Below, piece by piece: positions 1-20,388 of a stretch of DNA of 34,473 nt. How positions within the stretch are numbered: position 1 is the stretch's first letter; every line of letters starts with the position of its first letter. Source of the stretch: a bacterium. Lineage in GTDB: Bacteria; Hydrothermota; Hydrothermia; LBFQ01; DSFT01. The notes under the pieces are model-generated. The model did no database searches. It was not told where the DNA came from and saw only the letters and a program-made list of their open reading frames with translations. The DNA is taken from NCBI GenBank assembly GCA_030550205.1, contig JAUQPS010000009.1, positions 1 through 34,473 of the forward strand. Reading direction: 5' to 3'. Position numbers and translations under genes: made by a program.

Positions 1-2336
1 GAGGGATAAAAAGATAAAAAGGTAAATCGGGGTTTTATCTGAACTATGTGGAATTTAAACAACAGATTAGATGCTTTAGTAATTGCTTATAACAAATGTT
101 TTATCTGAACTATGTGGAATTTAAACAATATTATCAAAAATTACAATATTCTCTATTTTATTTTGTTTTATCTGAACTATGTGGAATTTAAACTTATTTT
201 CTAAATATGAAATATAAGCTAATGCAATAAGTTTTATCTGAACTATGTGGAATTTAAACCTATTCCTTTAGAAAAACTGAATTTAAGTTTAGTGGTTTGT
301 TTTATCTGAACTATGTGGAATTTAAACTTAAATTCAACAACAACATATTCCAAATCCCTAAAATGTTTTATCTGAACTATGTGGAATTTAAACAGCGTAA
401 AATTTAAGTATGTTCCTATACATATTGTAGTGTTTTATCTGAACTATGTGGAATTTAAACTAATTTCTTCTCAAAAAAGTTTTTAATAGAAACTAAATGT
501 TTTATCTGAACTATGTGGAATTTAAACTCTTTCTCAAAAGGTTATCATTAGCGAAAGCAATATCAGTTTTATCTGAACTATGTGGAATTTAAACAGAGAG
601 TAGAACAAAGCATACAAAATTTCAAGAATTATAGTTTTATCTGAACTATGTGGAATTTAAACTTCGTTGAAAACTCTCTTTTAAGAAAAAGAGGCTTATT
701 GTTTTATCTGAACTATGTGGAATTTAAACAGTGTAAAATTTAAGGAAGATTTTGAAAGTTTTGAAAGTTTTATCTGAACTATGTGGAATTTAAACCAAAA
801 AGGAAGTGTAAATCCAAACCATCTGCATATTTGGTTTTATCTGAACTATGTGGAATTTAAACCACGTTAAAAATTGTTGATTACGCTTACAATGATAGAA
901 GTTTTATCTGAACTATGTGGAATTTAAACAAATTTTTCAAGTGAATAAACAGTGAAGACTATGTTTTGTTTTATCTGAACTATGTGGAATTTAAACTGGG
1001 CCCCGCCCAACATATCAATGTCAATACATACTGTTTTATCTGAACTATGTGGAATTTAAACAAAAAATTCAGTATCTTTTTGGGACTACTTTCAACAAGT
1101 TTTATCTGAACTATGTGGAATTTAAACGCTGTAATAAAGCTATCATTCTAAAAGGATTGAAATTTGTTTTATCTGAACTATGTGGAATTTAAACCTCTTT
1201 CTTTCAAGTTTTATGAACTGAGCAAAGATGAGTTTTATCTGAACTATGTGGAATTTAAACTTATTGTGTCAGCAAAAATATCTTCTGCTGTTGGGAGTTT
1301 TATCTGAACTATGTGGAATTTAAACACATAATAGTAATACAAAAGGAATGGAATGAAAAATTGTTTTATCTGAACTATGTGGAATTTAAACGTATAAGCA
1401 TTATTTTACGAAAAGATAATATAAAGCTGTTTTATCTGAACTATGTGGAATTTAAACTTTTTTCAAAAGCTTAGCATTATCAATGAAAGCAATAGTTTTA
1501 TCTGAACTATGTGGAATTTAAACATTAAATTTTGTAAAAAGTATTAGTTATTATAGCAATGTTTTATCTGAACTATGTGGAATTTAAACAAGTGCTCTTA
1601 AAGTGATGGGAAATAGTATAAAATAGTGTTTTATCTGAACTATGTGGAATTTAAACGAAGTGCAGGGAAGTAGGGTTTAACAAAGTAAAATCGTTTTATC
1701 TGAACTATGTGGAATTTAAACCATATTGAAAATAAGATAGACAATATTGTAATTTTTGTTTTATCTGAACTATGTGGAATTTAAACGTATTAAAGAAGTC
1801 AGGAATAGAATTAAAATTATGAGGTTTTATCTGAACTATGTGGAATTTAAACCTTCAAATTACGGGTTTCAAGGTTATTGCAAGTGATAGTTTTATCTGA
1901 ACTATGTGGAATTTAAACTTTAGAAGTTTTAATTCTTCAATGTTATCTTTATTACCGTTTTATCTGAACTATGTGGAATTTAAACGTATCATAACTTCTT
2001 TTTCTAATTGTTAGTGTCAAATGTTTTATCTGAACTATGTGGAATTTAAACCAAAATGAAAAAACTTCAAATCAGAATATATACATAGGTTTTATCTGAA
2101 CTATGTGGAATTTAAACTTAATTTCTCAAAAAAGTTTTTAATAGAAACTAATTCAGGTTTTATCTGAACTATGTGGAATTTAAACGCTCTTTTAGCCTTG
2201 CCATCGCCTTGCCTCCTTGCTCTGTTTTATCTGAACTATGTGGAATTTAAACATATGCATATTCTCCTACTTGATAGTAGCATATACCAGAATTTACTTT
2301 TATTTCAGTTTTATCTGAACTATGTGGAATTTAAGC
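1..2336 (+). CRISPR. CRISPR array, trailer-side part, 35 repeats
   Basis: Thirty-five copies of a 29-bp repeat that begins GTTTTATCTGAAC and ends GGAATTTAAAC. The first is at 32-60 and the last at 2308-2336. The flanking bases vary, which fixes the length at 29. The 34 complete spacers are 36-39 nt except the last, which is 55 nt (2253-2307). Bases 1-31 are part of another spacer, so the array continues left. All repeats look identical except the final one, which has AAGC in place of AAAC; a decayed end repeat marks the trailer. Transcription is therefore left to right, and the last eight bases, ATTTAAAC, would be the crRNA 5' tag, resembling the ATTGAAAC-type tags of other systems. The array points into the cmr operon on the same strand and probably serves both Cmr complexes. 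Cas6 is not in the window. Confidence 0.98.
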
Positions 2337-2487
2337 AAATTTTTCTCCAATACAACTTTATTTAATAGAAGAGAGATGTATTCAAGAGAAAAGTACTTAG
2401 TTATATAATAATTTATATAATAATTAGGGATTTGTTATTGTTTTTTTTGATTGCATTATTATTCTAAGAAAATAAAGGAGGTAAGGC
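2337..2487 (+). promoter_or_regulatory. Spacer between array and module A, with a ribosome binding site
   Basis: This AT-rich stretch separates the trailer repeat from the first ORF of module A. It holds a perfect 12-bp tandem duplication (TTATATAATAAT at 2401-2412 and 2413-2424), then a T-run and a very strong Shine-Dalgarno AAAGGAGGT (2474-2482) five bases before the ATG at 2488. The duplication contains TATAAT-like hexamers and could be the operon promoter, but I see no good -35 element at the right distance. A T-rich tract at 2440-2450 has no convincing hairpin before it, so I do not call a terminator for the array transcript. The array transcript may read through into the operon. Confidence 0.5.
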
Positions 2488-2784
2488 ATGGTAATTGAGA
2501 TAGTTAAGATGTTGCTTGATGATTTCTTAGATAGAGGTGATATATTTTTTGTGTATTATAGTGAAGGGACCACATTTTTTGAATTCTGCGCTACAAGAGA
2601 AAAGATAGAAGAGTTCTTTGATAAAAAAGTAAAAAATATAATAAGCAATATAAGTAAAGTTCAATTAAAATTTCCAGAAGGGAAAGATGCTTTTATAGTA
2701 GCTAATGATAGTGAAAAATTTCTGTTTATTGTTATAAGGCTTTATATGAAATATATGAAATTTAAACCAAATGGGCTTAATTAG
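2488..2784 (+). CDS. Small protein of unknown function, first ORF of Cmr module A
   Basis: A 98-aa ORF between the CRISPR array and cmr5, with a strong AAAGGAGGT ribosome binding site five bases upstream, so it is probably translated. I do not recognise the family. The sequence is mixed charged and hydrophobic with aromatic clusters (DIFFVYY, TTFFEFC), no membrane segment, no Cys pairs and no clear enzyme motif. It looks like a small alpha/beta protein. It is separated from cmr5 by about 96 bp holding another candidate promoter. Its last ten codons are encoded by a sequence that matches the CRISPR repeat at 24 of 29 positions (2739-2767). That raises the possibility that its 3' end, or the whole region, has a regulatory RNA role. 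It could be an accessory Cmr protein, an antitoxin-like product or a chance ORF; the ribosome site argues for a real gene. Confidence 0.6.
   Translation: MVIEIVKMLLDDFLDRGDIFFVYYSEGTTFFEFCATREKIEEFFDKKVKNIISNISKVQLKFPEGKDAFIVANDSEKFLFIVIRLYMKYMKFKPNGLN
2739..2767 (+). repeat. Degenerate CRISPR repeat-like sequence inside orf98
   Basis: Aligned without gaps to the 29-bp repeat, this segment matches at 24 positions; mismatches are at repeat positions 2, 8, 13, 17 and 20. The nine 3'-terminal bases, AATTTAAAC, which contain the whole predicted crRNA tag, are intact. It is in the same orientation as the array and about 400 bp past its last repeat. It encodes the end of the 98-aa ORF. The flanks are not obviously spacer-like and no second copy follows at spacer distance. 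It could be an old array remnant, a solitary repeat used by a regulatory crRNA-like transcript, or a chance match in AT-rich DNA. Confidence 0.5.
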
Positions 2785-2812
2785 TCTATGGTTTTAAAGG
2801 GTGTAAAACTTG

Positions 2813-2824
2813 CTTTAAAATTTC
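2813..2824 (+). promoter_or_regulatory. Candidate promoter element upstream of cmr5 of module A
   Basis: CTTTAAAATTTC with TAAAAT as a -10-like core. The wider string TTGCTTTAAAATTTC is identical to that before nuoC (28922-28936). Here the start codon is 57 bases further on and a good ribosome site, AGGAGG (2866-2871), precedes cmr5, so this transcript would have a leader. Just upstream is a small perfect inverted repeat, GTTTTA-N7-TAAAAC (2791-2809), which might be an operator. Confidence 0.5.
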
Positions 2825-2880
2825 AGATATATTTTTATTTAGAAGGTTGGGGATTATTAAAGTGCAGGAGGATATGAAAA

Positions 2881-3249
2881 ATGAGGACTTTAAATCAAGA
2901 GAGGGGATTATATGCATTAGAAATAGTTAAAGAAGTAAAAAAGAAGCCGGACAAGGCTCAAAAGAAATACAAAAGCTATGCTAAAAAACTTCCTGCTCTC
3001 ATAGCCACCAATGGGCTTATAGCCACTCTTGCCTTTTTGAAATCAAAGAGTGATGCCAAAGATGTTTACGATTCTGTAGTTAGATGGTTGAAACAGCAAG
3101 AATATATAGAAAGTGAGGAAAATGGATTAGAAGAATTACTAAAAGTAGATTATCACAAGCTTCGTTTGGCAACTATGGAGGCTTTGGCTTTTGCCAGTTG
3201 GCTAAAAAGGATAGTGGAGATTGAGATAGAAGAGGATGAAAATGAATAG
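2881..3249 (+). CDS. cmr5: Cmr5, small subunit of type III-B complex (module A)
   Basis: A 122-aa small helical subunit of the Cmr effector, which fills the belly of the crRNA filament and contacts target RNA. Recognised by the family pattern: AKKLPALIATNGLIATLAF in the middle and LRLATMEALAFASWLKRIVE at the C-terminus, both matched by the other Cmr5 in this window. The length is normal for the family. An AGGAGG ribosome site lies nine bases before the ATG. The 3' end overlaps the start of cmr6, so the two are translationally coupled. It follows orf98 and opens the run cmr5-cmr6-csx1-cmr2-cmr1-cmr3-cmr4. Compared with its paralogue in module B it lacks about 75 residues between the first helix and the AKKLP motif; that extra part is the unusual state. 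Confidence 0.93.
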   Translation: MRTLNQERGLYALEIVKEVKKKPDKAQKKYKSYAKKLPALIATNGLIATLAFLKSKSDAKDVYDSVVRWLKQQEYIESEENGLEELLKVDYHKLRLATMEALAFASWLKRIVEIEIEEDENE

Positions 3250-4390
3250 GCATAGCAAAAGTAGGAGGGAAAGAAAGCATAAGATTAAGGGAAGTATTCG
3301 CTTTGGAAGTTGTAATGAGATCTTTCTCAGATATGAAGCTCCTGACGATCTCGTAGATAAAGATGAAGAGAATGTAAAGAATAAGTTCTTTGATAATGCA
3401 ATGAAACACCTTATAAGTAAGGGAGTAGATAGCTTGCCTTTACTGCTTAACAAGTATATTCCAATTCCTGATAATGCTGTGGAAGTTATCACAATAGAAG
3501 AGAAAAATGGTAATCCTAAGGAAAGCAGGAAAGACTTCCTTTCACTTAAAAAAGGTAAAATTATAGAGGAAGGAGTAAAGAGGTTATTCTATAATTCCTT
3601 ATTGAAGCATTTTAGGTATTCAGATCTAACAAAATCTACTATAAAAAACAGACTTGATGAAATTTTAAATACTTCAGAAAGCTCTGGATATGTAAAGGTC
3701 TTTGACAAAACTCTAAAAACTATATCTCCACTTGTCTGTGGGCTTGGGGCAACTCATATATTTGAGACTTCTATAACATTACACCACATATGGGGAGTTC
3801 CTTACATTCCGGGTAGTAGTCTAAAGGGTGTGTGTAGGCAGGTGGCCTTTTGGAAGCTTGTTGAAGAAAGAAAGTTATCAAAGGATGATTTGGAAGAGTT
3901 CCAAAAGAAATTTTATGGTGATTTAATCACCGATGATAAAGAAATTCTAAAATACCAGCTTTTGTTTGGAACGCAGGGCTTTAAAGGACTTTTGCTTTTC
4001 TTAGATGCCTATCCTGAAATACAAGATGGAAGTATAAAAGAACTATTTAAGCTTGACATTATGAATCCGCATTATAGCGAATACTATGGAGAGAAAAGAG
4101 ATATTCCGGGAGATTGGGAAAATCCTGTGCCAGTGTTTTTCCTTACGGTAAAAGAAGGGGTGTCTTTTAGGTTTGTGGTTCTCTTTGACGAATGCAGGTG
4201 GGAGGTGATAAAAAAGAAAGGAATACCTGATAAAGAAGGAAAGAGAAGGCAATTAGCTGATGAGGAAATAAAAGGGGTTGAAGAGTATATGGAAAGTGAG
4301 AAGTTTTATGAGGATATTATAGGGCAAGCTCTGGAGTTCTATGGAGTTGGTTCAAAAACAAGGCTTGGCTATGGATTGTTTAAAATATAA
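3242..4390 (+). CDS. cmr6: Cmr6, RAMP subunit capping the III-B backbone (module A)
   Basis: A 382-aa Cas7-like RAMP protein that sits at the distal end of the Cmr filament. The family signature is the block GLGATHIFETSITLHHIWGVPYIPGSSLKG, where the glycine-rich RAMP loop lies near the middle, followed by LLFGTQGFKGLLLFLDAYP, PGDWENPVPVFFLTVKEGV, and the C-terminal GVGSKTRLGYG loop. I placed the start at 3242 because AGAGG (3231-3235) is then six bases away; an in-frame ATG at 3236 would abut it. The gene overlaps the end of cmr5 and, at its 3' end, the start of csx1. The first 60 residues are rich in Lys and Arg (KSRRERKHKIKG), a likely RNA contact. Collinear with the Cmr6 of module B. Confidence 0.93.
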   Translation: MNRHSKSRRERKHKIKGSIRFGSCNEIFLRYEAPDDLVDKDEENVKNKFFDNAMKHLISKGVDSLPLLLNKYIPIPDNAVEVITIEEKNGNPKESRKDFLSLKKGKIIEEGVKRLFYNSLLKHFRYSDLTKSTIKNRLDEILNTSESSGYVKVFDKTLKTISPLVCGLGATHIFETSITLHHIWGVPYIPGSSLKGVCRQVAFWKLVEERKLSKDDLEEFQKKFYGDLITDDKEILKYQLLFGTQGFKGLLLFLDAYPEIQDGSIKELFKLDIMNPHYSEYYGEKRDIPGDWENPVPVFFLTVKEGVSFRFVVLFDECRWEVIKKKGIPDKEGKRRQLADEEIKGVEEYMESEKFYEDIIGQALEFYGVGSKTRLGYGLFKI

Positions 4391-5708
4391 ATATTATATA
4401 AAAATACTTGTAGCTGTATGGGGTAATTTCTCCGTTTGGAAGGATGCAAACTATAAGTATAAGAATGAAAAACATACTTCAAGTACCACTTTACCTTTAT
4501 TACTTGGTACAATAAATCCTAACTATACTTATATAATCTTGTCTGATACTTTAATGGATAAATACGATAAAATTTCCACATATCAAGAGGGTTTATCAAA
4601 AATAAAGAACGAGGCAGATGCTTTTATTAAAGAAAAAATAAGAAGCTATCCTACTAAACTAAAGGAAGATAACATAAATATTTTGATTTTGCCGGCTGTG
4701 GGCACTTTTTCAAGGTCAAGGTTTGTGGGAAATCCTAATAATTTCTATGCCTTGGTTTATTTTGAACTTGCAAGGAATATTCTAAGGAATTTGGGGTCTA
4801 AACTGGCATTTATAAGCGAAAATAATAAGCCTTGTTTAGAACTTTACCTTGATATAACTCATGGCTTGAACTTTATGACCATGATAACTTACAGGGCGGT
4901 AAAGGATATTTTGCAGATAATTGCCTATTTTTGTAATGTAAGACTAATAGTTTTGAATAGTGATCCTTTGGTGGGTAGTGGAAATATTGACTTGAATATC
5001 AACGAGATTGAGAAAATAAACGTAATACCAGCTTTTAACTTTTATAGGTATAGTGATACTATGCTTCTTATTCCAAGTCCAAGCGGGCATGAAGGTGTAA
5101 ACGCTCTTACAAAAAGGATGGATAGGCTTTATGCCTTTTGCAGTGCCTTTCTACATGGCTTGCCTGTTTATATGTATTATTTTTATGAAAAGCTTAAGGA
5201 AGATGAGATAGAAAGCATAGTTAAGCTGTTTTGCAATTATGTTCATATAAAGGTGAATGTTAATGGAACTTTTGAGATTATTCAAGGGTTAAACTTTGGC
5301 GAGAGTTTTATATCGCTTCTTCAAGGGTTTTTGCTGTCAAACCTTTTAGAATTTTTAAGGGTTGATGTTAAAGATGATGGAGCGATAAGAATGGATGATA
5401 TAGAGAGAATAAAGGGTATCTTTAAACATTCAAAAACAATCCTACAAAGGCTTGAAAGGGAGTTTGAAAAGATAGAAAAGAGAAAAAGACAGATAAGCTC
5501 TGAATTTAAGGACTATGGATTTTATGCAGAGGCCAATTATTCTCCTAATGATAACTTTGATGGGAGAAACTTTTTTGCTCACTGCGGCTTTGCGCATAAT
5601 CTAATTGAGGTGAAAAAGGAAGGAAATACCATATTTATTAAGCCAAAGCAAAGATTTATAGAGGAAATACATGAGGCTCTTTTGGAGAGCCTACCACTTG
5701 GAGGGTAG
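4371..5708 (+). CDS. csx1: Csx1-family CARF-HEPN ribonuclease (module A)
   Basis: Predicted cyclic-oligoadenylate-activated RNase, the downstream effector of Cmr2 signalling. The N-terminal half is CARF-like: a short beta strand KILVAVWGNFSVW after the start, then LDITHGLNFMTMITYRAV, a signature of the Csx1/MJ1666-type family. The C-terminal half carries the HEPN catalytic motif R399-N-F-F-A-H404, followed by CGFAHNLIEV. Length (445 aa) fits the family. I start at ATG 4371, which puts the first CARF strand close to the N-terminus; an in-frame ATG at 4341 would add ten residues and deepen the overlap with cmr6. Two bases separate its stop from cmr2, so it is co-made with the enzyme that should produce its ligand. 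Which ring size it binds cannot be read from sequence. Confidence 0.88.
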   Translation: MDCLKYKYYIKILVAVWGNFSVWKDANYKYKNEKHTSSTTLPLLLGTINPNYTYIILSDTLMDKYDKISTYQEGLSKIKNEADAFIKEKIRSYPTKLKEDNINILILPAVGTFSRSRFVGNPNNFYALVYFELARNILRNLGSKLAFISENNKPCLELYLDITHGLNFMTMITYRAVKDILQIIAYFCNVRLIVLNSDPLVGSGNIDLNINEIEKINVIPAFNFYRYSDTMLLIPSPSGHEGVNALTKRMDRLYAFCSAFLHGLPVYMYYFYEKLKEDEIESIVKLFCNYVHIKVNVNGTFEIIQGLNFGESFISLLQGFLLSNLLEFLRVDVKDDGAIRMDDIERIKGIFKHSKTILQRLEREFEKIEKRKRQISSEFKDYGFYAEANYSPNDNFDGRNFFAHCGFAHNLIEVKKEGNTIFIKPKQRFIEEIHEALLESLPLGG

Positions 5709-5710
5709 CT

Positions 5711-8266
5711 ATGGTACAGGATAATTATTCTGTGGATTATGTTTTGAAGTTAAAGGCTTTAATGCATGATCCTATATATAAAATATCTACTTTGGGAAGC
5801 GGTCATGAAAATATAGCGAAAGAACTTTATAAGCTTCTTATGAATGAAGAATATTCGGAAGATGGTAATTTGAAAAAAGCAGACCATATAAGCTCTGCTA
5901 TATCAAGGATAGTTGTAAAAGACGCACCTTGGGTTGATTTTGAAGAGTCTTATTTTATTGATCCTTTCACTCTTAAAAAAACCGAACCGATAAAAGCTCC
6001 AGAAAAAGAAGAAGATGTAAAAGATATTTTTAAAGAACTTGGAAACAAGCTTCAATGTAAAAATAATCCAAAGTTATGTTTTCTTTTCCTTTGGAGATTT
6101 CTGCCAGATATCTTTCCTTGGATAAAAAAACATCCTGCAGACTCAAGGGCTCCTAACCATTCCATATACGACCACCTTGTGCAAAGCTCTTGTATTGCCA
6201 CATGTCTTGACAAGGGAAATAAACCAGCCTTTTTGCTCTTTACCATTAGTCCTGTGCAATCCTTTGTTGCCATAGCCAGAAAAACTTCCGACCTTTGGGC
6301 TGGGAGTTATTTAATCTCTTATCTAATCTACAAGGCTATTGAAGTAATAATGGATGAGCTTGGACCAGACCATATTATCTTTCCTAATTTAAGAGGGCAA
6401 CCATTGGTGGATTTATGGCTTTATGAAAAGCATTTTAAAAACTTAAACATAGACAAAATTGGTGATTTTGATTTTGAAAAGCGGAAACATAAAGATAATC
6501 TTATAAATGATAAACTTCTTATTGCCAACTTTCCTAATAGATTTTTAGCCATAGTGCCTTATGGTAGGGCAAAAGATATAGCTAAGGAATGTCAAGAAGC
6601 CATAGGAAAGGCAATTGATGAGCTTTTGGAAAAGGTAGAAAGTTTAAATGATGATAAAGTAAAAGAAGAAGTTAAAAAAGTAAAGTATGTTATAAAGGAA
6701 CACCTTACCAAATATCTAAAAATTTATTGGGTAGTTTTGCCTTTTTATGAAAACAATTATACGGATGTTGAACCTATTCTTAAAGATTACAAAAATTTGA
6801 TAGTTGAAAGTGATTTATATAAGGTAGTTAAAACTATTGTATATAATCCTTACTATAAAAATTTAGGACCTAACGTGGGAAGTGCTTATTCTCTCCTTGT
6901 AGAGCTAACAGAAAGGTTTTTGGCAAGCAGAAAAGCAATAAGAGATTTTGAAGTAGTTAAAATAGATAAAGAAAGTATAAAGCAATGCCATCTTTGTGGC
7001 GAGTATGAGGTGCTTGATATAAAATGGGAAAATATTGGTAGGAAGTACGTAGGCGAGAGTGAAAGACTTTGTGGTATGTGCTTTTTCAAAAGGCTTTTGC
7101 CCAAGTTGATAGAAAACAAATTTGGTCTTGAATTAAAATTTCCATCTACTGCTGAAATGGCAACAGTAAAGTATAAGGAGGATCTATATATTGACCTGCG
7201 AAAAATTGAAAAATTTTTAGATAATTATAATCTACCAAAGACTGCAAGTGTGCCAAAGCTAAAAAACAAACCACTATACGACATTGATGGCCAATGGCTA
7301 ATGGAGTCATCATATAGAAAAGAATACCTTAAAAGGGAATATGGGATAAATGTTCCTGAGGAAGAGCTTGAGGAGATGAGAAAATTTTTGAATGAAAAGA
7401 AGATAAAACCACCTACTTATTATGCCATTCTTTCCGTAGATGGTGATAATATGGGTAAGTGGCTAAAGGGTGAATATTTACCGACGGTGGAAAAATTGCT
7501 TCATGAAAAGGTAAGAAATGAGCCAAAACTAACAGAGGATCAGAATATAAAGAGACTTCTTGAAAGCATTCATCCTATGTCTCCATCTTTCCATAACTTG
7601 TTTTCTAGAAGACTATCAGAGTTTGCTTTAGAAAGGGTAAGTAAAAGAGTAGAAAAGGTTTATTATGGCAAGCTTATTTATGCTGGCGGGGATGATGTAT
7701 TAGCCTTTTTGCCGGTAGATGAGGCTTTAAATTGTGCTTGTGATTTAAACAAGGCTTTTAAGATCTTGCTTGGAGAAAAGGCAAGCGTGAGTGCAGGGAT
7801 TGTTTTTGTCCATCATAAATATCCACTATCTTTGGCTTTGAGAGAGGTAAGAGATGCACAAAAGAGGGCAAAAAGGGATTATGGCCGTTCGGCAGTATGC
7901 ATAAAACAGATATCTGGCTCTGGTCAAGTTAGAACCACCGGGTTTAAGTGGGAAGACAAGGATTTCTTTGATAAGATTGTTGAAAAATACTCAAGGGAAG
8001 AGCTTTCTTCTAAGTTTGCTTATGACCTTGTGGATGTGGTGAGGATGTTACAAGGAAAAGAGAATAAGGTTAAGGATGAAACTCTTTCTATCTTGGAGAG
8101 GGAAATTAAGAGGTTATATAGGCGTAAAGTTTCTAAGGATAATGTGGATAAGGACTTTGAAGAGAAGCTTTTGAATACTATGAAAAGGTATAAAGATAAT
8201 ATACTGGCCTTTGCTGATATGTTGATAATTGCAAGGTTTGTGGCTAAGATGGGGGCAGAGGGATGA
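5711..8266 (+). CDS. cmr2: Cmr2/Cas10, cyclase and nuclease subunit (module A)
   Basis: An 851-aa large subunit that makes cyclic oligoadenylates and cuts DNA when target RNA is bound. The HD pair is H19-D20 in LKALMHDP, with a second ADH motif in the KADHISSA stretch. The conserved block HPADSRAPNHSIYDHLVQ follows, then a zinc finger CHLC (426-429) and CGMC (454-457). The first palm domain has AILSVDGDNMGKWL, and the second has the cyclase motif GGDD at 659-662. The C-terminus is helical (D4 domain). All catalytic motifs are present, so both activities should be intact. Codon use shows many AGG arginine codons, unlike the flanking chromosomal genes. It sits two bases after csx1 and overlaps cmr1 by ATGA. 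It is collinear with Cmr2 of module B along the whole length. Confidence 0.97.
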   Translation: MVQDNYSVDYVLKLKALMHDPIYKISTLGSGHENIAKELYKLLMNEEYSEDGNLKKADHISSAISRIVVKDAPWVDFEESYFIDPFTLKKTEPIKAPEKEEDVKDIFKELGNKLQCKNNPKLCFLFLWRFLPDIFPWIKKHPADSRAPNHSIYDHLVQSSCIATCLDKGNKPAFLLFTISPVQSFVAIARKTSDLWAGSYLISYLIYKAIEVIMDELGPDHIIFPNLRGQPLVDLWLYEKHFKNLNIDKIGDFDFEKRKHKDNLINDKLLIANFPNRFLAIVPYGRAKDIAKECQEAIGKAIDELLEKVESLNDDKVKEEVKKVKYVIKEHLTKYLKIYWVVLPFYENNYTDVEPILKDYKNLIVESDLYKVVKTIVYNPYYKNLGPNVGSAYSLLVELTERFLASRKAIRDFEVVKIDKESIKQCHLCGEYEVLDIKWENIGRKYVGESERLCGMCFFKRLLPKLIENKFGLELKFPSTAEMATVKYKEDLYIDLRKIEKFLDNYNLPKTASVPKLKNKPLYDIDGQWLMESSYRKEYLKREYGINVPEEELEEMRKFLNEKKIKPPTYYAILSVDGDNMGKWLKGEYLPTVEKLLHEKVRNEPKLTEDQNIKRLLESIHPMSPSFHNLFSRRLSEFALERVSKRVEKVYYGKLIYAGGDDVLAFLPVDEALNCACDLNKAFKILLGEKASVSAGIVFVHHKYPLSLALREVRDAQKRAKRDYGRSAVCIKQISGSGQVRTTGFKWEDKDFFDKIVEKYSREELSSKFAYDLVDVVRMLQGKENKVKDETLSILEREIKRLYRRKVSKDNVDKDFEEKLLNTMKRYKDNILAFADMLIIARFVAKMGAEG

Positions 8267-9471
8267 AGGAGATTAAACTAAGTTGTGAAGTGATTACTCC
8301 TTTGTTTATGGGCGGTGCTAATATGGAGCCTGAGATAAGGACGCAGTCTATAAATGGGGTTGTAAGATGGTGGTTTAGGACTTTGGGAGGTAGTAAAGAA
8401 GAAGAAAAGAAACTTTTTGGATGGACTGGACAAGAATCCAAGAAGGGTGCGGTGAAATTTGTGGTTTGTAAAGAACCTTATAATTCAAGAGATATACAAT
8501 CTTGCCTAGATAGTTCAAAAAATGGTTTGAATTATCTGGCCTTTTCCTTGAAAAGACAAAATAGACGATGTTTGGATGTAGGTTATAAGTTTGACTTAAG
8601 AATTATTTTCTCTACTATTTTAGAAGAAAAAGAAAAGAAAAAATTTTTGGGAGCGCTTTGGTGTGCTTTTTATTTGGGTAATTTTGGAAGTAGGGCAAGA
8701 AGAGGTTTTGGATCTATTATGGTAAGGGAAATTTCTGGTGATTTTGACAATTTTATTTCCTTTGATCCAAAAGGTGATATAAAAGGGTGGTTAAAGAGTA
8801 ATTATGAAGAAATAAAAAGGCTATTCCCAAAAGCTAACAATATAGAGGTTTACTCCTTTGAAAAAAGAGATGCTAAAACAGTCCAAGATTGGGTAAGTGA
8901 GATTCAACTTCGAAAAGGAATAGATAAACGGAAAATTCAAAAAGATAAGGGTAGTAAATGCTTTGTAGATGATTTTAACCAACAAGATTTAGGAGATTGG
9001 GATGGGTTGCTTAATCTTATGGGCTACACTTTAATGGCTTACAGGAAATGTTTAGGAAAATATGAAGTTCAAGTAGGGAAATATAAAGTTCAAGATTGCT
9101 ATTTTGCAAGGAATATAATACAAAGTCAAGGGAAACTACAAAATTTTACTGAAAAACCTATCATACAAAGAGCTATATTCGGTCTTCCTTTGAATTTTTA
9201 CTTTTTATCCATAAGGCAGGGAAATAATAGGGGAACAGTTTTTCCTGTAAAAGGAGGAGAAAAACTTCGCCGAGCATCGCCTTTAATATATAAGGTGATT
9301 AAAAACGAAGAAAAGTTGGAGGGCTTAATCATTTTTGTAATGGATAAGTTCTTGCCAGATGATGTTGATTTAGAACTAAATGGTGTAAAATTACAAAAGC
9401 CTGATTATACTCTTATTAAAGATTACCTACAAAGCTTGCAAGATAAAAAGATTATCGGGAGGCTTATCTGA
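8263..9471 (+). CDS. cmr1: Cmr1, RAMP subunit of type III-B complex (module A)
   Basis: A RAMP protein that binds near the 3' end of the crRNA and target. The family pattern is clear at the N-terminus: LSCEVITPLFMGGAN, then EIRTQSINGVVRWWFR and KKLFGW, then the glycine-rich YLGNFGSRARRGFGS. At 402 aa it is about 70 residues longer than Cmr1 of module B. The extra length lies mostly in the middle (about residues 200-295) and includes a 21-bp imperfect tandem duplication (9055-9075 and 9076-9096) encoding GKYEVQV then GKYKVQD. The start ATG overlaps the cmr2 stop (ATGA) and the stop shares one base with the cmr3 ATG (TGATG), so translation is coupled on both sides. Confidence 0.94.
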   Translation: MKEIKLSCEVITPLFMGGANMEPEIRTQSINGVVRWWFRTLGGSKEEEKKLFGWTGQESKKGAVKFVVCKEPYNSRDIQSCLDSSKNGLNYLAFSLKRQNRRCLDVGYKFDLRIIFSTILEEKEKKKFLGALWCAFYLGNFGSRARRGFGSIMVREISGDFDNFISFDPKGDIKGWLKSNYEEIKRLFPKANNIEVYSFEKRDAKTVQDWVSEIQLRKGIDKRKIQKDKGSKCFVDDFNQQDLGDWDGLLNLMGYTLMAYRKCLGKYEVQVGKYKVQDCYFARNIIQSQGKLQNFTEKPIIQRAIFGLPLNFYFLSIRQGNNRGTVFPVKGGEKLRRASPLIYKVIKNEEKLEGLIIFVMDKFLPDDVDLELNGVKLQKPDYTLIKDYLQSLQDKKIIGRLI

Positions 9472-10505
9472 TGTTGAAATTCACTATTAAGCCTATTGAT
9501 GTGGTGTTTTTTGGAAGTGGTAAGCCTTTTAACTTGGGGGGATTGGGAGAGAGTATATTTCCACCATTTCCAAACTCCTTTGCCAGTGCAATTTTTGCAA
9601 GGCTTTATGAGGAAGGAATTAAGAACCGTGAAGTATTTGAGAAAGTTTATGGTCCTTTCTTGGAAAAGGATGGTAAATATTACTTTCCTGCGCCTTGTGA
9701 TATAGTCAAGGAAAAGGGAGGCAGTAGGATAAAAGTTTATAAGCCAAGGGAGAGCTCTAATCTTATAAAAGTGGAAAATACAGACCTTGAAAATAAGATA
9801 AAGCTTATGCCTTGGATAAAGCCAGAGTGCCAAGAGGATTACGAACCTTTTAATGGTTTTATAAGCCTTGAAGGGCTTAAAAAGTGGTATTATGGAGAGA
9901 AAATAAATGCTTCTGATTTGCTTTCTGAAGACAGGATTTTTTATATAGAAGATAGAATTTCCATACGCATGGATGATAGCACTGGCACGGTAAAGGGAGA
10001 AGATGGGCTTTATAGGGTAAGGTTTATAAGGCTTGAAAAAGGATTTAGATTTGTCTTTTGGGTGGAACTAAACAACCAAACGCTTACGGAAGATGAAGCA
10101 CTAAAAATTTTCAACCAACATCCAAAGGTCCTAAAGATCGGTGGAGAGGCAAGAACTGCCACTTGTGAAGTGGAAAAAGATGATTTTAAAGATTTATTTA
10201 AAGATTTTCGCTCTAATAATCAAGATAAAAGCTATAAAATTCTTTTTTTAACACCGGGAGTTTTTGAGGAAGAAAAACCAATACTTAACCATTTTGAAAA
10301 TTTAGAATATGCCTGTATTTCTGGATATACTCTTTTATCTATTAGGTCAAAGCATAATTATGGAAACAAAGTTATCCGTGCTATAAAGCCGGGGAGTGTG
10401 TTTGTGATAAAGGATAAGAATTTATCCATACCTATTGACTTTTACAAGCCATCTAATAATTTCATAGGTTCAAATCTTATTTTAGTTAAAAAAGGAGGGA
10501 TTTAA
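9471..10505 (+). CDS. cmr3: Cmr3, Cas5-like subunit of type III-B complex (module A)
   Basis: A 344-aa Cas5-like protein that holds the 5' tag of the crRNA next to Cmr2. Recognised by the opening FTIKPIDVVFFGSGKPFN, then FPPFPNSFASAIFARL, the YGPFLEKDGKYYFPAPCDIV block, EDRISIRMDDSTGTVKG and the late KIGGEARTATCEVE and PGSVF motifs. Its length is normal. A one-base overlap with cmr1 and one untranslated base before cmr4 keep it in the operon. The closest relative in the window is the Cmr3 of module B, which shares the same opening and the same order of motifs but differs in the central region. If the array serves both complexes, both Cmr3 proteins must read the same ATTTAAAC tag. Confidence 0.94.
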   Translation: MLKFTIKPIDVVFFGSGKPFNLGGLGESIFPPFPNSFASAIFARLYEEGIKNREVFEKVYGPFLEKDGKYYFPAPCDIVKEKGGSRIKVYKPRESSNLIKVENTDLENKIKLMPWIKPECQEDYEPFNGFISLEGLKKWYYGEKINASDLLSEDRIFYIEDRISIRMDDSTGTVKGEDGLYRVRFIRLEKGFRFVFWVELNNQTLTEDEALKIFNQHPKVLKIGGEARTATCEVEKDDFKDLFKDFRSNNQDKSYKILFLTPGVFEEEKPILNHFENLEYACISGYTLLSIRSKHNYGNKVIRAIKPGSVFVIKDKNLSIPIDFYKPSNNFIGSNLILVKKGGI

Positions 10506-10506
10506 C

Positions 10507-11424
10507 ATGTATAAAGATTTTGGGATTTTGACATATTATACCTTAACTCCTTTGCATATGGGGTCGGGCAGTAGCGTGCATTATGTAGATTTGACCATCC
10601 AAAGGGAAAGACATACTTCCTTTCCTATAATGGCTGGTAGTGGTATAAAGGGGGTTTTGAGAGATTATGCTAAAATAAAATGGAATGATAATAGCTTGGT
10701 AGATGAGATCTTTGGTTATGAAGATGGAAATAAAGGAGCTTCTATGGTTGCTTTTACTGATGCCAAAATTCTTTTATATCCTGTGCGTAGCTTAAAGGGG
10801 ACTTTTGCTTGGATTACTTGTCCTTTAGTGCTAAAAAGGTTCAAAGAGGAGCTAAAAAGCTTAGGTAAAACAGAAGATACAAACTGGGATGTGCCAAACC
10901 TTGATCCTGATAAGGATAAAGCTTTGGTAAGTAAGGATTCATCCTTGGTAATTGATGATAAATCTATCGGACTTGAAGAGTTTGTATTTGATTGTGAAAA
11001 GAGTGAAAATGTGGATAATATAGCAAAAGCTATAAAGGAATATCTACCACATACAAGCACGGTTAATGAGTTATCTAAAAGGTTAGTGGTAGTTGGTGAT
11101 AATGTCTTTACAGACTTTGTAAACTATGCAGTAGAGATTAGAACAAGGATTAGGATAGACCAAGAGACTGGAACGGTAAAAGAAGGCGCTCTTTTTACTA
11201 TAGAATTTGTGCCATCGGAGGCAATTTTTTATAGTTTTGTGTTTTTTGTGGAGAGAAAGAAGGATGATAGCTTAGACGTAAGGACGAAGTTTGAAGAGCT
11301 TTTTAGCTCCGAAGATAAAGATAAAGCAAACAAAGATAAAGTAAAGGAGTTGGTGCTTCAATTTGGTGGAGATGAAACCATAGGAGCGGGTTTTACAAAG
11401 GTTAGATATAATACGCTTAAGTAA
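10507..11424 (+). CDS. cmr4: Cmr4, backbone RNase subunit of type III-B complex (module A)
   Basis: A Cas7-like protein that multimerises along the crRNA and cuts target RNA at six-base intervals. The opening YTLTPLHMGSGSSVHYVD is typical, and Asp28 in VDLTIQRERHT aligns with the catalytic Asp26 of Pyrococcus furiosus Cmr4, so slicing should be active. The RAMP loop AGSGIKGVLRD follows, and the C-terminal LQFGGDETIGAGFTKV is also conserved. An AAAGGAGGG ribosome site lies upstream of the ATG. It is the last gene of module A. Its 3' end overlaps the 3' end of the convergent sigma-factor gene by eight bases, and I see no terminator there, so the transcripts may interfere. Confidence 0.95.
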   Translation: MYKDFGILTYYTLTPLHMGSGSSVHYVDLTIQRERHTSFPIMAGSGIKGVLRDYAKIKWNDNSLVDEIFGYEDGNKGASMVAFTDAKILLYPVRSLKGTFAWITCPLVLKRFKEELKSLGKTEDTNWDVPNLDPDKDKALVSKDSSLVIDDKSIGLEEFVFDCEKSENVDNIAKAIKEYLPHTSTVNELSKRLVVVGDNVFTDFVNYAVEIRTRIRIDQETGTVKEGALFTIEFVPSEAIFYSFVFFVERKKDDSLDVRTKFEELFSSEDKDKANKDKVKELVLQFGGDETIGAGFTKVRYNTLK

Positions 11425-12420: not shown

Positions 12421-13389
12421 ATGGATGAGTTAATTTGCTTAATTAAAAGTTATGAGAATAATAATTTTGACAAGAGGGGTTGGAAAAATTTGCTTTCAAG
12501 TAAATATAAAAATTGGAAAAAATTACTAAAAGAACCAAATAATTGGAAGTTATTAGATGAGCTAAAAAGTGTAAATAATTCTGATAAACTTTATGAATTA
12601 ATAATAGATGTAGTAGGACCAGAATTGGCTTCATATTGGTTTAATTCTAAAATAAAAGAGCAAAAATTAGCTTCAAGGAAATGGCTTAAAAAATTTTCAA
12701 AAAATCCTAGTGTAGAATTTTGGAATAAACTTAATTATGAAGCAAGAAATTATATAACCAAGGATAAATTTTATGGTTTTAAAATTCGTTTTATTCCTAA
12801 TGATTTTGAAAGAAAACTTATAGCTTATTTACTTGACAAGTTTAGGAAAAATGGATATAAACTAATTGCATTGCCAGAGATTTTATTATCTTATGAAATT
12901 CCACCAATTTTCCTAATTCATCCTGATGAAAAAATAAAAGAAGAGATTAGAATTGAAGAGCTTTTGGGATGTTATATAGCTGATTTAAGGAGCATTATTT
13001 TATATGATAGGGGAATATATTGGTTATCAAAGAGATATAAATTTGATAGTGAAAAACTAAGGGCAGTTGTTCTTATTCATGAAATAGCACATTGGATTTC
13101 GCATCTTTTACCCAAAACAGATTCTCCTGAATGGCCAATTCAAATTTATAAATTAACATCAGATGAAGTTCATGAGGGATGGGCTCAACTTATAACTTAT
13201 TTAGTTGTTAGTCAAACTGATAAAAATCTTTTAAAAGTCTTTGAAAACCTAAATAAAATCCAATCTGATGAATATAGAGTTTTTGAAAAATTTAAGAATA
13301 AAGATGAAAGTAAAATAATTTTATCCCTTGAAAAGCTTAGGTCTATTGGATTTCCTGCAACACTTGAAGATTGGGAGGGTTTAATGTGA
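12421..13389 (+). CDS. HEXXH zinc metallopeptidase of unknown family
   Basis: A 322-aa soluble protein with a zincin motif, H220-E-I-A-H224, in the helix LRAVVLIHEIAHWISHLLP. E249 or E252 in DEVHEGWAQLITYLVV, about 25-28 residues later, is a likely third zinc ligand, a gluzincin-like layout seen also in ImmA/IrrE-type peptidases. Residues 1-200 are not recognisable to me: a lysine- and tryptophan-rich helical start, then a mixed part. I see no CARF, SAVED or Lon domain and no signal peptide or membrane helix. It is divergent from the sigma-factor gene and overlaps orf148 (GTGA), which in turn overlaps cmr3 of module B, so it should be made with that module. A cytoplasmic protease beside a sigma factor in a type III locus suggests cleavage of a regulator, but the substrate and trigger are unknown. 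Confidence 0.8.
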   Translation: MDELICLIKSYENNNFDKRGWKNLLSSKYKNWKKLLKEPNNWKLLDELKSVNNSDKLYELIIDVVGPELASYWFNSKIKEQKLASRKWLKKFSKNPSVEFWNKLNYEARNYITKDKFYGFKIRFIPNDFERKLIAYLLDKFRKNGYKLIALPEILLSYEIPPIFLIHPDEKIKEEIRIEELLGCYIADLRSIILYDRGIYWLSKRYKFDSEKLRAVVLIHEIAHWISHLLPKTDSPEWPIQIYKLTSDEVHEGWAQLITYLVVSQTDKNLLKVFENLNKIQSDEYRVFEKFKNKDESKIILSLEKLRSIGFPATLEDWEGLM

Positions 13390-13832
13390 TAGTTAAAAGG
13401 CATTATAAAAAGAATGTATTTCCTATTAATGAATTTTCTTTAAAAAGTAAAAAGTTTAAAGATGTCTCTTATTATTTTCAGGAACAAGTTTTAACTTTAA
13501 AAAATTTTACTTTCCACTATCATTTTAAAATAATAAAATTTTGGAAAGGATTTAGGATTATGTCATTACATTTTATTTTTGTTTTCGATGCTATTTCAAA
13601 AAGTGGTAGTTCTTATAAGTGTTTCATTTCTTATGAAAATTCAATAATGGAAGTGCCATTATCATTAGCTTTAAAAATCATTGATAAAACAATAAAAACA
13701 ATCATTGAAAATGATAATTTTGATAATGAAGAAAAGGCAAATTTAGAAAAACTTATTAGTAAAGCTTTTGCTAGATTTAGAATGAATATGCCTTTTATAG
13801 CTATAAGCTTAGGTAGGGAATCAGATGATTAA
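13386..13832 (+). CDS. Protein of unknown function between peptidase and cmr3
   Basis: A 148-aa protein starting at GTG 13386, chosen because GGGAGG (13373-13378) sits seven bases upstream and GTGA overlaps the peptidase stop; a TTG at 13371 would lie inside the ribosome site. I do not recognise the family. The N-terminal half is aromatic and beta-rich (FTFHYHFKIIKFWKGF, then LHFIFVFDAIS), and the C-terminal half has helices with NFDNEEKANLEKLISKAFARF. There is no membrane segment or Cys cluster. Its ATG-overlap arrangement with both peptidase and cmr3 makes it part of the module B operon. By position it could be the peptidase's substrate, inhibitor or partner, or an anti-sigma factor; nothing in the sequence proves any of these. 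Confidence 0.75.
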   Translation: MIVKRHYKKNVFPINEFSLKSKKFKDVSYYFQEQVLTLKNFTFHYHFKIIKFWKGFRIMSLHFIFVFDAISKSGSSYKCFISYENSIMEVPLSLALKIIDKTIKTIIENDNFDNEEKANLEKLISKAFARFRMNMPFIAISLGRESDD

Positions 13833-14871
13833 GTTTATTTTAAAGCCTTTTGATGTTTTATTTTTTGGAAGTGGAAAACCTTTTAATTTTAGTGTTCAAG
13901 AAGCATCTTCAATATTTCCATCATTTCCAAATACCTTAGCCTCTTCAATATGTAGTAAAATTTTAGTTGAGAAAGGGATAGATATATCAAGAATAATTAA
14001 AAAGTTCTATGGTCCTTTTTTGGAAAAAAACAATAAAATTTTATTTCCAAAACCACTTGATATTCTTCGTGAGAAGAAGAAAGAAAATGGAGAAATAATT
14101 GTAGGAAAATTATTAAAAAAATTTAGACTAATTAATCCCTCCTATATTGATTCTCAAAACAATTTAAAAGCACTTTTATGGATAGGTAAGCATAATAAGA
14201 ATTTTGAAATTTTTAAAGGATTTATAACCCTACATGGCTTAAAAAAATGGTTAAATAATAGTGAAGTTTCCAGAGAGGATTTAGTTGACGAGAATGAAAT
14301 TTTTGAATTTGAGTCAAGAATTGGAATTAAAATGGATTATTTTAGAAATGTTACAAAAGAAGAAGATGCTATATATAGAATCAACTTCGTAAGATTGAAG
14401 AATGATACAAAAATAGTATTTTTTGTTGAATTTGATTATAATGAAGATAAAATTTTTGAATTTTTTGATAAAAATCCAATAAAAGTTTTAAAACTTGGTG
14501 GTGAAATGAGAAGTGTAAGCTATGAAGTAAGCAAAACAGATATAAATCAAGAATTCAATTTCAGAAAACCAGAAATAAATGAAAATGACATTATAAAAAT
14601 CCTATATTTAACTCCAGGCTCTCTAGATAAAGCCGATAGCTCATTAGAAATTCTTACTGGTGCTGTTTTGACTATCAATTTAGCAAAGTTATCAAAACAT
14701 ACAAAAGAAAGGAAAATCAAAAGAGGACTGGTGCCCGGAAGTGTAATTTACGCGAAAGTCAAGGACAAAAACAAAGTAGAAAATTTCTGGCTAAATCCAC
14801 AAGATGATGATTTTATTGGCACAAATTTAAAAATTTACACAAAAGTTAAGGGGGTGGATGAATATGTTTAA
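13825..14871 (+). CDS. cmr3: Cmr3, Cas5-like subunit of type III-B complex (module B)
   Basis: A 348-aa crRNA-tag-binding subunit. It opens with FILKPFDVLFFGSGKPFNFS, followed by IFPSFPNTLASSI, FYGPFLEKNNKILFPKPLDI, ESRIGIKMDYFRN, VLKLGGEMRSVSYEVS and PGSVIYA, the same motif order as Cmr3 of module A. The start ATG overlaps the orf148 stop by eight bases and has an AGGTAGGG ribosome site just upstream. It is the first effector gene of module B, whereas in module A cmr3 comes near the end. The gene is more AT-rich than its module A counterpart (AGA and AAA codons dominate), closer to the flanking chromosome. Confidence 0.94.
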   Translation: MIKFILKPFDVLFFGSGKPFNFSVQEASSIFPSFPNTLASSICSKILVEKGIDISRIIKKFYGPFLEKNNKILFPKPLDILREKKKENGEIIVGKLLKKFRLINPSYIDSQNNLKALLWIGKHNKNFEIFKGFITLHGLKKWLNNSEVSREDLVDENEIFEFESRIGIKMDYFRNVTKEEDAIYRINFVRLKNDTKIVFFVEFDYNEDKIFEFFDKNPIKVLKLGGEMRSVSYEVSKTDINQEFNFRKPEINENDIIKILYLTPGSLDKADSSLEILTGAVLTINLAKLSKHTKERKIKRGLVPGSVIYAKVKDKNKVENFWLNPQDDDFIGTNLKIYTKVKGVDEYV

Positions 14872-15940
14872 AGAAAAGTTAGTCTTGACCTTCTATGCCC
14901 AAACACCGGTTCATATGGGTTCGGGCACAAGTGTTTCTTATGTTGATAATCCTATTCAAAGAGAAAAACATACAGACTATCCAATTCTTGCAGGAAGTGG
15001 AATCAAAGGGGTCATAAGAGATCTAGCAGAGAGAATATGGAATGATAAAAATAAAGTAAATGTAATTTTCGGACCAGAAGATGGAGCAGAAGAATTCGCT
15101 TCCTGTATCTCTTTTACCGATGCAAAAATTCTGCTTTATCCTGTTCGTTCTGTAAGAGGAGTATTTGCTTATATAACATGTCCTTATGTTTTAAGGAGAT
15201 TTAAAAATGAGCTAAGTAGCTTGGAGATGGATAGTTTGCCAGAAATTTCAGAGTTGGATAGTAAAAAAGATGATAACAAAATTTTTGTTTGTCGTGATTC
15301 AGAATTGAAAATTGATAATAACAAAGTTGCACTTGAAGAATTTGTTTTTGATGTTGATAATTCTAAAAATATTGATGAGTTAGCAAATATTCTTTCTAAA
15401 TTTTTGCCGGATGAAATAAAAAAAGAAGATTTCTTTAAAAAGCATTTTGCCATTGTATCAGATAATGTTTTTAGGGATTTTACAAAATATGCAATAGAAA
15501 TAAGGACAAGGATAAGAATTGAACAAAGTACGGGCACAGTTGCACAAGGGGCGCTATTTTCAATTGAGCTTGTTCCTTCTGAAAGTGTTTTCTACGCGTT
15601 TTTGTTTATAACTAATCCAAGATTTGGAATTGATGAGAAAATATATAGACAGTTAGAGGAACTCAAAAGTAAAGGAAAATCTTGGGAAAGTGTTTTGGGA
15701 GAAGTAAAAGAAGCAGGGGAATTGAACGAAAAAGATAAAGATGAAAGAATAAAGAAGGCTTATGAAGGCGGGTACTTTTCAAGCGATGAGATCAAAAATG
15801 AATTAGAAAAACTTCTCAAAGATAACAATATAATTCAACTTGGCGGAGATGAGACTTTGGGAATGGGGATAATGAAGGTGAAATGTTTGGATAAAGATGA
15901 AGGTTCGCAAACTCAAAATCAACAGGGGGTTCGGTCGTGA
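14864..15940 (+). CDS. cmr4: Cmr4, backbone RNase subunit of type III-B complex (module B)
   Basis: A 358-aa Cas7-like slicer subunit. Opens LTFYAQTPVHMGSGTSVSYVD; with the start at 14864 the catalytic Asp in VDNPIQREKHT is residue 28, exactly as in the other Cmr4. I prefer ATG 14864 over 14858 because AGGGGG (14849-14854) is then nine bases away rather than three. AGSGIKGVIRD and the C-terminal IQLGGDETLGMGIMKV are conserved. It is about 50 residues longer than the module A protein, mostly a charged helical insertion before the C-terminal motif (KSWESVLGEVKEAGELNEKD region) and a short polar tail. It overlaps cmr3 upstream and the GTG start of cmr1 downstream. Confidence 0.95.
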   Translation: MFKEKLVLTFYAQTPVHMGSGTSVSYVDNPIQREKHTDYPILAGSGIKGVIRDLAERIWNDKNKVNVIFGPEDGAEEFASCISFTDAKILLYPVRSVRGVFAYITCPYVLRRFKNELSSLEMDSLPEISELDSKKDDNKIFVCRDSELKIDNNKVALEEFVFDVDNSKNIDELANILSKFLPDEIKKEDFFKKHFAIVSDNVFRDFTKYAIEIRTRIRIEQSTGTVAQGALFSIELVPSESVFYAFLFITNPRFGIDEKIYRQLEELKSKGKSWESVLGEVKEAGELNEKDKDERIKKAYEGGYFSSDEIKNELEKLLKDNNIIQLGGDETLGMGIMKVKCLDKDEGSQTQNQQGVRS

Positions 15941-16935
15941 AAAAAATTTCGTTAAGTTGTAAAATCATTACGCCTTTATTTATGGGTGGAGCGGAACAGC
16001 AAGCAGAATTGAGAACTCAATCTTTTAATGGGTTATTCAGATACTGGTTTAGGTTGCTTGGTGGAAGTTTTGAAGATGAGAAAAGATTGTTTGGATGGGG
16101 AGGGGAGAAGGCAAATAAAGGAGTTGTTAGAATTAGGGTAATAAAAGAAGGAGATATTAATCCTTATCAAGTTACTCACCGAGAACCAACGGGATATAGG
16201 TATTTGGGATTTTCTTTGCAATTGACTGAAAGAAACGGAATAAAAGTTCCATACTATTTTAAAATTTTATTTTCCTTTCATCCAATAGCTACGGATGAAG
16301 ATATTAAAAAATTCCTTTGTGCTGTCTGGTGTGCTTTTTATCTTGGAAATTTTGGGAGTAGAAGCAGGAGAGGATTTGGTTCAATAATGGTTGAAGATAT
16401 AGAGGGGGATATCCCAAGTGGGTTTAATTTGAAATTCAAACCGCAAGGAGATATAGGAAATTGGATAAAGGAGCAATTAAATTATATCAAGGGCTTAAAC
16501 TATTGGAAAGCAAGAAAAGATATTCCATATGTGTTTGAGAATTTAGAAATATATCGCTTTTTCCAGTCTAAACGATACTGCTTTGAAATGTTACATGAAA
16601 TGGGAACCAGATATAGATATTATAGACAAAATCTCCGTTTTCACGAGAGGATATGGTTTGGTTTACCAATTTTGCCAAAAATTAAGGAAGCTCGTCGTGC
16701 TTCACTTTTAATTTTTAAAACTATCCAAAGTAATTCTAATTTTGAGGGATTTATCTTAGTGTTCAAACCAAATGAAAAACATGATTTTAAATTCTTACCG
16801 GATGAAGCGAAAATAAATTTAAAAGGGGTTAATTTAAACATGCCAAGATGGGAGGTTTTAAATGATTTTATGCGAAGTTTAGAAGACTTAAATTTAATAA
16901 AGAAAATTTATCCATCAAAGGAGGTAGAGTTATGA
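15937..16935 (+). CDS. cmr1: Cmr1, RAMP subunit of type III-B complex (module B)
   Basis: A 332-aa RAMP subunit, close to the usual length of smaller Cmr1 proteins. The start is GTG overlapping the cmr4 stop (GTGA), preceded by CAGGGGGTT as ribosome site. Motifs: LSCKIITPLFMGGAE, ELRTQSFNGLFRYWFRLLGG, KRLFGWGGE, then AFYLGNFGSRSRRGFGSI, all matched in the module A copy. The C-terminal part is shorter and diverged (RHEAR-type elements replaced by KIKEARRASLLIFK). In module B it lies between cmr4 and cmr5, while in module A it follows cmr2. This is one of the two differences in gene order between the modules. The stop overlaps the cmr5 start by four bases. Confidence 0.93.
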   Translation: MKKISLSCKIITPLFMGGAEQQAELRTQSFNGLFRYWFRLLGGSFEDEKRLFGWGGEKANKGVVRIRVIKEGDINPYQVTHREPTGYRYLGFSLQLTERNGIKVPYYFKILFSFHPIATDEDIKKFLCAVWCAFYLGNFGSRSRRGFGSIMVEDIEGDIPSGFNLKFKPQGDIGNWIKEQLNYIKGLNYWKARKDIPYVFENLEIYRFFQSKRYCFEMLHEMGTRYRYYRQNLRFHERIWFGLPILPKIKEARRASLLIFKTIQSNSNFEGFILVFKPNEKHDFKFLPDEAKINLKGVNLNMPRWEVLNDFMRSLEDLNLIKKIYPSKEVEL

Positions 16936-17531
16936 ACCAAATTAAAACATTAAATCAGAAGAGAGCAAAACTCTGTCTTATTTGTGTAGAAAGGATAAAA
17001 CTTTTGAAGGAAGGAAAATGGAAGGAGCTTTCCGATGAGAGTGTTAAGGATTTCTTGCCTTCAATTTATGATGAATTTGAGAAATTTAAAAATTTTGATG
17101 GAGCAAAGAAAGAAGCGTATAGATTATTTGAAAGAGAATTGAAAAAGGAAGAAAACAGAAATAAGAAGGAAGAAAAAGTATATGAAGATTTTAGGATAAA
17201 CTTTGAAGGTTTTAACTATACAGATGATTATTCTTCTCATGCTAAAAGGCTTCCCCCAATGATTGTTTCAAATGGTTTAATTCCTACACTTGCTTTTTAT
17301 AAATCAAAGGGAAAAGATAGAGGACAAATTTATCAAGACATCTCGGAAATACTTGAAGCTTTAGAATTTAAACCTTACTGCGAATGGAAAAGTAAAAACC
17401 AAAATAAAGGGCTTCTTGAATTTCTGTTAGATATAGATGCTAACACTTTAAGGCTTGTCACAATGGAAGTACTTTCAATTGCAAATTGGTTAAAAAGAAT
17501 AGTAGAGGTTGAATTGGAGGAGAGAGAATGA
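16932..17531 (+). CDS. cmr5: Cmr5 with a long insertion (module B)
   Basis: Small subunit of the Cmr complex, 199 aa instead of the usual 120-150. The first helix (TLNQKRAKLCLICVERI) and the core from HAKRLPPMIVSNGLIPTLAFYKSK to LRLVTMEVLSIANWLKRIVE match Cmr5 of module A. Between them lies an extra segment of about 75 residues (roughly 25-100), highly charged and probably helical, with runs such as EKFKNFDGAKKEAYRLFERE. It may extend the helical bundle or bind a partner. The ATG overlaps the cmr1 stop and an AAGGAGG site lies upstream. A very short ORF and 76 bases separate it from cmr6, the only real gap in the module. Confidence 0.92.
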   Translation: MNQIKTLNQKRAKLCLICVERIKLLKEGKWKELSDESVKDFLPSIYDEFEKFKNFDGAKKEAYRLFERELKKEENRNKKEEKVYEDFRINFEGFNYTDDYSSHAKRLPPMIVSNGLIPTLAFYKSKGKDRGQIYQDISEILEALEFKPYCEWKSKNQNKGLLEFLLDIDANTLRLVTMEVLSIANWLKRIVEVELEERE

Positions 17532-17590
17532 TAAAAATAGACATAAACAAAAGCATAGAGATTTTTAAAAGCCTTTTGAAGCTTACATAG
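17528..17590 (+). CDS. Possible 20-aa ORF between cmr5 and cmr6
   Basis: An ATG overlapping the cmr5 stop (ATGA) opens a 20-codon frame (MIKIDINKSIEIFKSLL and three more) ending in TAG at 17590. A GGAGG site lies seven bases before the ATG, in the end of cmr5, so ribosomes could restart here. No homology can be judged at this length. It may be the stub of a lost gene, a tiny translated peptide that couples cmr5 to cmr6, or chance. Confidence 0.25.
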   Translation: MIKIDINKSIEIFKSLLKLT

Positions 17591-17607
17591 AATATGGAGG
17601 ATTTGAA

Positions 17608-18705: not shown

Positions 18706-19015
18706 TTTCATAAAATTTTCGGTAAAAAAGAAGGATGATTTCACTTTAATTGAATTTGAACTTTTGAGAGAACTTGAGCCTTCTGATTTGGAGAATATAA
18801 AGCCTCCTGATCCTGTAAAAGAGGGTTTTTCATCAAGTGCAATTATTTTATCGGGAAGAGGTCCGATATGGTTATACGGTTATTTGATTCATTTTTATCA
18901 TCCGGTAAGGGCGATTGCGATATTTGATCCGAGGTTAGATGGGGCGGTTGTGATTGAGACACATTCAAGAAATTTTAAAGTTGGGGAGGTAATAAAAAGG
19001 GAGGAGTTTGAATGA
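18689..19015 (+). CDS. csx3: Csx3/Crn3, ring nuclease for cyclic tetra-adenylate
   Basis: A 108-aa protein of the Csx3 family, which binds and linearises cA4 in a manganese-dependent way and so switches off CARF effectors. The core SGRGPIWLYGYLIHFYHP followed by AIAIFDPRLDGAVVIETHS is diagnostic. H71 and D80 have the same nine-residue spacing as the catalytic H60 and D69 of Archaeoglobus fulgidus Csx3. The N-terminus FTLIEFELLRELEP also fits. The start is uncertain: ATG 18689 overlaps cmr6, and a TTG at 18698 would give a more typical length. It is followed by csx1 with an ATGA overlap, so the on-switch target and the off-switch are made together. Module A has no such gene. Confidence 0.93.
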   Translation: MEYLNDFIKFSVKKKDDFTLIEFELLRELEPSDLENIKPPDPVKEGFSSSAIILSGRGPIWLYGYLIHFYHPVRAIAIFDPRLDGAVVIETHSRNFKVGEVIKREEFE

Positions 19016-20376: not shown

Positions 20377-20388
20377 AGGAGGTGGGCC

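Follow-up and report, generated by a model that had tools for sequence, protein, structure and literature searches.

The window, a stretch of 34,473 nucleotides, is the whole of contig C186 from a fragmented genome (1.89 Mb in 210 contigs, 86% complete, 6.7% contamination). It carries a CRISPR array, followed by a short open reading frame, orf98, and by two type III-B modules (Table 1), with a sigma-70-like gene lying between the modules on the opposite strand. The final array repeat (2308-2336) agrees with the array repeat at 28/29 positions and ends in AAGC. Additionally, the final spacer (2253-2307) is 55 nt long, compared with 36-39 nt for all others. Overlapping the 3' end of orf98 is a degenerate match to the array repeat, here called the pseudo-repeat, and module A starts 113 bp past it. 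Module B opens with two ORFs that could be assigned to no family (322 and 153 aa; 12421-13832); in the translation of the first, a HEIAH motif resembling that of a zinc metalloprotease was read by eye.

Table 1. Features of the window discussed in the text, with positions counted from its first nucleotide.
Feature	Position	Strand	Description
CRISPR array	32..2336	+	35 repeats of GTTTTATCTGAACTATGTGGAATTTAAAC; spacers of 36-39 nt except the last; truncated on the left by the contig edge
orf98	2488..2784	+	ORFan of 98 aa; AAGGAGG ribosome site; coding-like codon usage; residues 85-93 from the pseudo-repeat
Pseudo-repeat (probable ectopic degenerate CRISPR repeat)	2739..2767	+	24/29 to the array repeat; tag ATTTAAAC intact; putative Cas6 cut at 2759/2760
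Type III-B module A	2881..11424	+	cmr5, cmr6, csx1, cas10/cmr2, cmr1, cmr3, cmr4
Second type III-B module (module B)	12421-23016		with csx3 and csx1

The same array repeat occurs elsewhere in the genome, 14 times in an array on contig C5 and once at the end of contig C49, and within the phylum its family, CRISPR-DR43, was found in this genome only. None of the genes in the window encodes Cas6. The genome has one, a Cas6b (G000:C174:5527-6288), which belongs to a type I-B operon. In that operon, an AbiEii-like gene, a small unknown gene and an ATPase-like gene are placed between cas7 and cas5 (L117 1374-3198).

The preliminary description had reported an ungapped 24/29 match at this site, in array orientation and with the tag intact, about 400 bp from the array and overlapping the end of orf98. 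We reproduced each of these points: the distance from the last array repeat measures 402 bp, and the overlap encodes residues 85-93 of 98, running from the third position of codon 84 to the first position of codon 94. The sequence of the pseudo-repeat, GCTTTATATGAAATATATGAAATTTAAAC, differs from GTTTTATCTGAACTATGTGGAATTTAAAC by five substitutions (2 T>C, 8 C>A, 13 C>A, 17 G>A and 20 G>A), four of which turn G or C into A. The 8-nt tag ATTTAAAC is identical at 8/8 positions (2760-2767), as are all of the last nine bases, and 10/12 are kept in the first 12 nt, with mismatches at 2 and 8. The pseudo-repeat forms a weak hairpin (-2.3 kcal/mol), unlike the array repeat, which is unstructured.

Judged by its codon usage, orf98 looks like a coding gene; its codon score is 0.40, compared with an in-frame mean of 0.37 and an off-frame 95th percentile of 0.14. 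Its G+C content (26%) is nearer to that of housekeeping genes (27-29%) than to that of module A (33-36%), and for this reason orf98 may not have been acquired together with the module. Searches of 146 other genomes from the phylum, and of collections of genome contigs, viral contigs, phages and plasmids, gave no homolog of orf98; candidates at E values of 0.002-0.04 lay mostly inside much longer frames and were rejected. The DNA of 2337-2880 shares nothing within the phylum beyond short matches of 25-60 bases. In a single-sequence AlphaFold2 model, residues 1-86 are folded into a helix-strand-strand-helix-three-strand domain, and residues 88-98 form a disordered tail (pLDDT <50); this was the one confident model of five (pLDDT 81.0, the other four scoring 43-53). 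When it was used as the query of a fold search, neither the PDB nor the viral models contained a match at E up to 0.001. Since the predicted domain stops at residue 86 and the tail beyond is disordered, the domain ends where the repeat begins; the repeat-encoded tail is a region of predicted disorder. Read in the frame of orf98, the array repeat would give FYLNYVEFK, whereas orf98 has LYMKYMKFK, and all five base changes alter the protein.

Several backgrounds bear on the possibility of chance similarity, in which the AT-rich coding sequence of a Lys/Tyr/Met-rich tail happens to resemble a repeat that is itself AT-rich. The best other non-array score in the window was 19/29 (32 kb, both strands). 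Markov simulations of orders 1-4, 4 Mb each, gave scores of 22-23 three times and 24 never, and none of 150 shuffled repeats scored as high as 24 in 678 kb. The preliminary description had proposed a scan of the genome with the repeat; in the 646 kb of genome stretches that we used as background, on both strands, equal matches are not frequent, with 76 matches of 19, 16 of 20 and none of 21-22, and the sole 23/29 belongs to the sister array on C5, where it is a terminal repeat in decay at the trailer end. Furthermore, when up to 3 mismatches were allowed, neither the array repeat nor the pseudo-repeat had a further ectopic copy anywhere in the genome. Extrapolation from the tail of the scores, which falls about 4-5 fold per step, gives about 0.03-0.06 matches per 1.25 Mb-strand, that is, about 0.1 in the genome and about 0.002 in the window, but only about 1e-5 in a 0.5 kb flank on one strand, as is the case here. 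A match by chance is therefore unlikely, and it is disfavored because the pseudo-repeat stands beside the array. We nevertheless leave this explanation a small probability, because of the genome-wide figure and because many windows were presumably scanned at the first stage.

The main alternative to a relic is that the pseudo-repeat may function as a Cas6 site within the orf98-cmr message. A cut at 2759/2760 would fall just ahead of the orf98 stop codon, detach the cmr5-cmr4 part and tie the output of cmr (or of orf98) to free Cas6. We regard this as rather unlikely, although the tag and the cleavage step between two A residues are intact and the site is the sole one of its kind in the genome within the limits searched, 113 bp ahead of cmr5. 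Because a Cas6 gene exists in the genome, on C174, and the 8-nt tag is intact, cleavage keeps some plausibility. Among synonymous versions of the peptide drawn from local codon usage, 24 matches is the maximum reached, but 9% of the versions get there, which is not significant. The primary binding of Cas6 involves repeat nucleotides 2-8 (PMC9458426), and two of these seven, 2 and 8, are changed in the pseudo-repeat; it also has a weak hairpin of its own, and, as neither a homolog of orf98 nor a shared locus was found, conservation lends it no support. The fuller proposal, that a repeat captured at the stop-codon end of orf98 would serve as a Cas6 site splitting the orf98-cmr message, and would thereby place the level of the III-B effector operon under the control of the crRNA-processing enzyme, seems to us quite unlikely.

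It is also highly doubtful that the pseudo-repeat is the first repeat of a guide RNA, CreA-like or cas-regulating, steering the effector of type I-B or III-B to a promoter or transcript in the vicinity. Standalone guide-like repeats are already known to occur beside cas genes, and CRISPR-derived RNA regulatory elements near cas genes are, by its title, the subject of Shmakov et al. 2023 (doi 10.1093/nar/gkad495). The pseudo-repeat is likewise a standalone repeat-like sequence in a cas locus, but it overlaps a coding end and has no identified target. Its intact tag and eroded Cas6 region agree with what has been described for the first pseudo-repeat of CreA (PMC9458426); however, the probability that all five mismatches avoid the last nine bases by chance is 0.13. 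No second pseudo-repeat was found within 113 nt downstream; the best score in 2768-2900, 13/21, is in the ordinary range, and no terminator-like site was found on the + strand in 2200-3300. CreA requires a seed match to the promoter region (PMC8501985). With nt 1-5 and 7-11 of the pseudo-spacer taken as the seed, the best match in 2337-2900 is 8/11, which is ordinary, as 189/200 random pseudo-spacers do equally well or better in their own surroundings; a 10/11 match at 3008 falls in the cmr5 coding sequence, at about the chance rate. A CreR/CreA-like or cas-regulating RNA, the kind of regulator raised in the preliminary description, is thus reduced to a resemblance, with no second pseudo-repeat, no seed match above background, and positions 2 and 8 changed. 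The likeness to CreTA (CreA psi-R1; PMC9458426, PMC8501985) consists of an ectopic degenerate repeat by cas genes that retains its 8-nt 5' handle but is eroded in the Cas6-binding part, whereas psi-R2, a promoter seed match and a toxin RNA were not seen at this locus and the adjacent effector is III-B. Racr, the solitary repeat units of phages (PMC10651486), are also single repeat mimics, but the pseudo-repeat lies next to an array and cas genes that belong to the host itself, with no adjoining phage gene.

On balance, we lean towards reading the pseudo-repeat as a true but degenerating copy of the array repeat outside the array, fused to the 3' end of orf98 and probably inert. Its similarity is far above background, and it lies on the array strand less than 0.5 kb past the trailer end. 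On C5, the in-phase repeat that closes the sister array is itself decayed (L056 13249-13277, minus strand, 23/29), and a worse one follows beyond it, so trailer-end repeats do decay in this genome. Three of the changed positions of the pseudo-repeat (8, 13 and 17) are also altered in the C5 relic, and G/C-to-A is the direction of change expected in a genome of 28% G+C. Like such decayed trailer-end repeats, of which the C5 array is the in-genome example, the pseudo-repeat is a degenerate same-strand copy on the distal side; unlike them, it is well separated from the array, out of phase (its distance from the array is not a multiple of the array unit) and inside an ORF. No further repeat remnants were found between 2337 and 2880, and its flanks are unlike repeat-spacer units, with 15% of random sites equal or better. 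Given the 402 bp gap, the lack of remnants and the ordinary flanks, we class it as ectopic and not as a plain array-end repeat.

In the simplest history, which is inferred, one terminal repeat would have become joined to the 3' end of orf98 through a rearrangement at the trailer end of the array. The captured repeat would now code for the floppy C-terminal tail of the protein and would be decaying through G/C-to-A changes, like the terminal repeats of the sister C5 array. It probably has no RNA function today, with weak Cas6 cleavage of the orf98-cmr transcript conceivable. Against a relic, the intact tag and the open frame through the element also fit a retained functional site.

Other sequences and origins were considered and set aside. 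A 19/29 repeat match over the ribosome site and start of cmr5 (2867..2895, + strand) was judged a coincidence, as it encodes the conserved Cmr5 start (M..TLNQ) in a comparison that took in module B, L109 and L110. A local DNA match pointed to the array unit at 2011-2055 as a source, with flank likeness no better than at random sites. Another repeat type of the genome as parent was likewise rejected, with no match to the pseudo-repeat within 3 mismatches elsewhere. Viral contigs contained no copy of the repeat or the pseudo-repeat. Neither of the two relatives that have both cmr genes and an array nearby (L161 and L166) shows an ectopic repeat, but they carry repeats of another sequence and lack orf98.

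Ectopic repeats beside cas genes are already known, and the sole unusual feature here is the overlap with a coding end. If the element is a relic only, its interest is modest, as an example of the end of an array becoming part of a protein gene. Cleavage by Cas6 at this site, should it occur, would provide a direct link from crRNA processing to the level of a type III effector; we found no description of such a link through a repeat inside a coding sequence in the literature searched.

The arrays themselves offered some additional observations. The C5 array (L056, 14201 and beyond) and the single C49 repeat (L057 4940-5058) both abut phage-like genes, namely a MuF-like frame that stays open up to the C5 array and an amidase at the C49 repeat. 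Such neighbors point either to spacers that match phage from the same sample and were joined to it by assembly, or to true insertions. The spacer at 1919-1956 of the window and C5 spacer C08 are mutual reverse complements over 36 nt, which is one target acquired in both orientations, in different arrays. Within the window, the spacers at 461-498 and 2118-2156 are alike over 31 nt, as would be expected had they come from variants of a single target. Spacer C14, the oldest on C5, has a 28/37 match to a DUF3782/PD-(D/E)XK gene at 26064 of the window.
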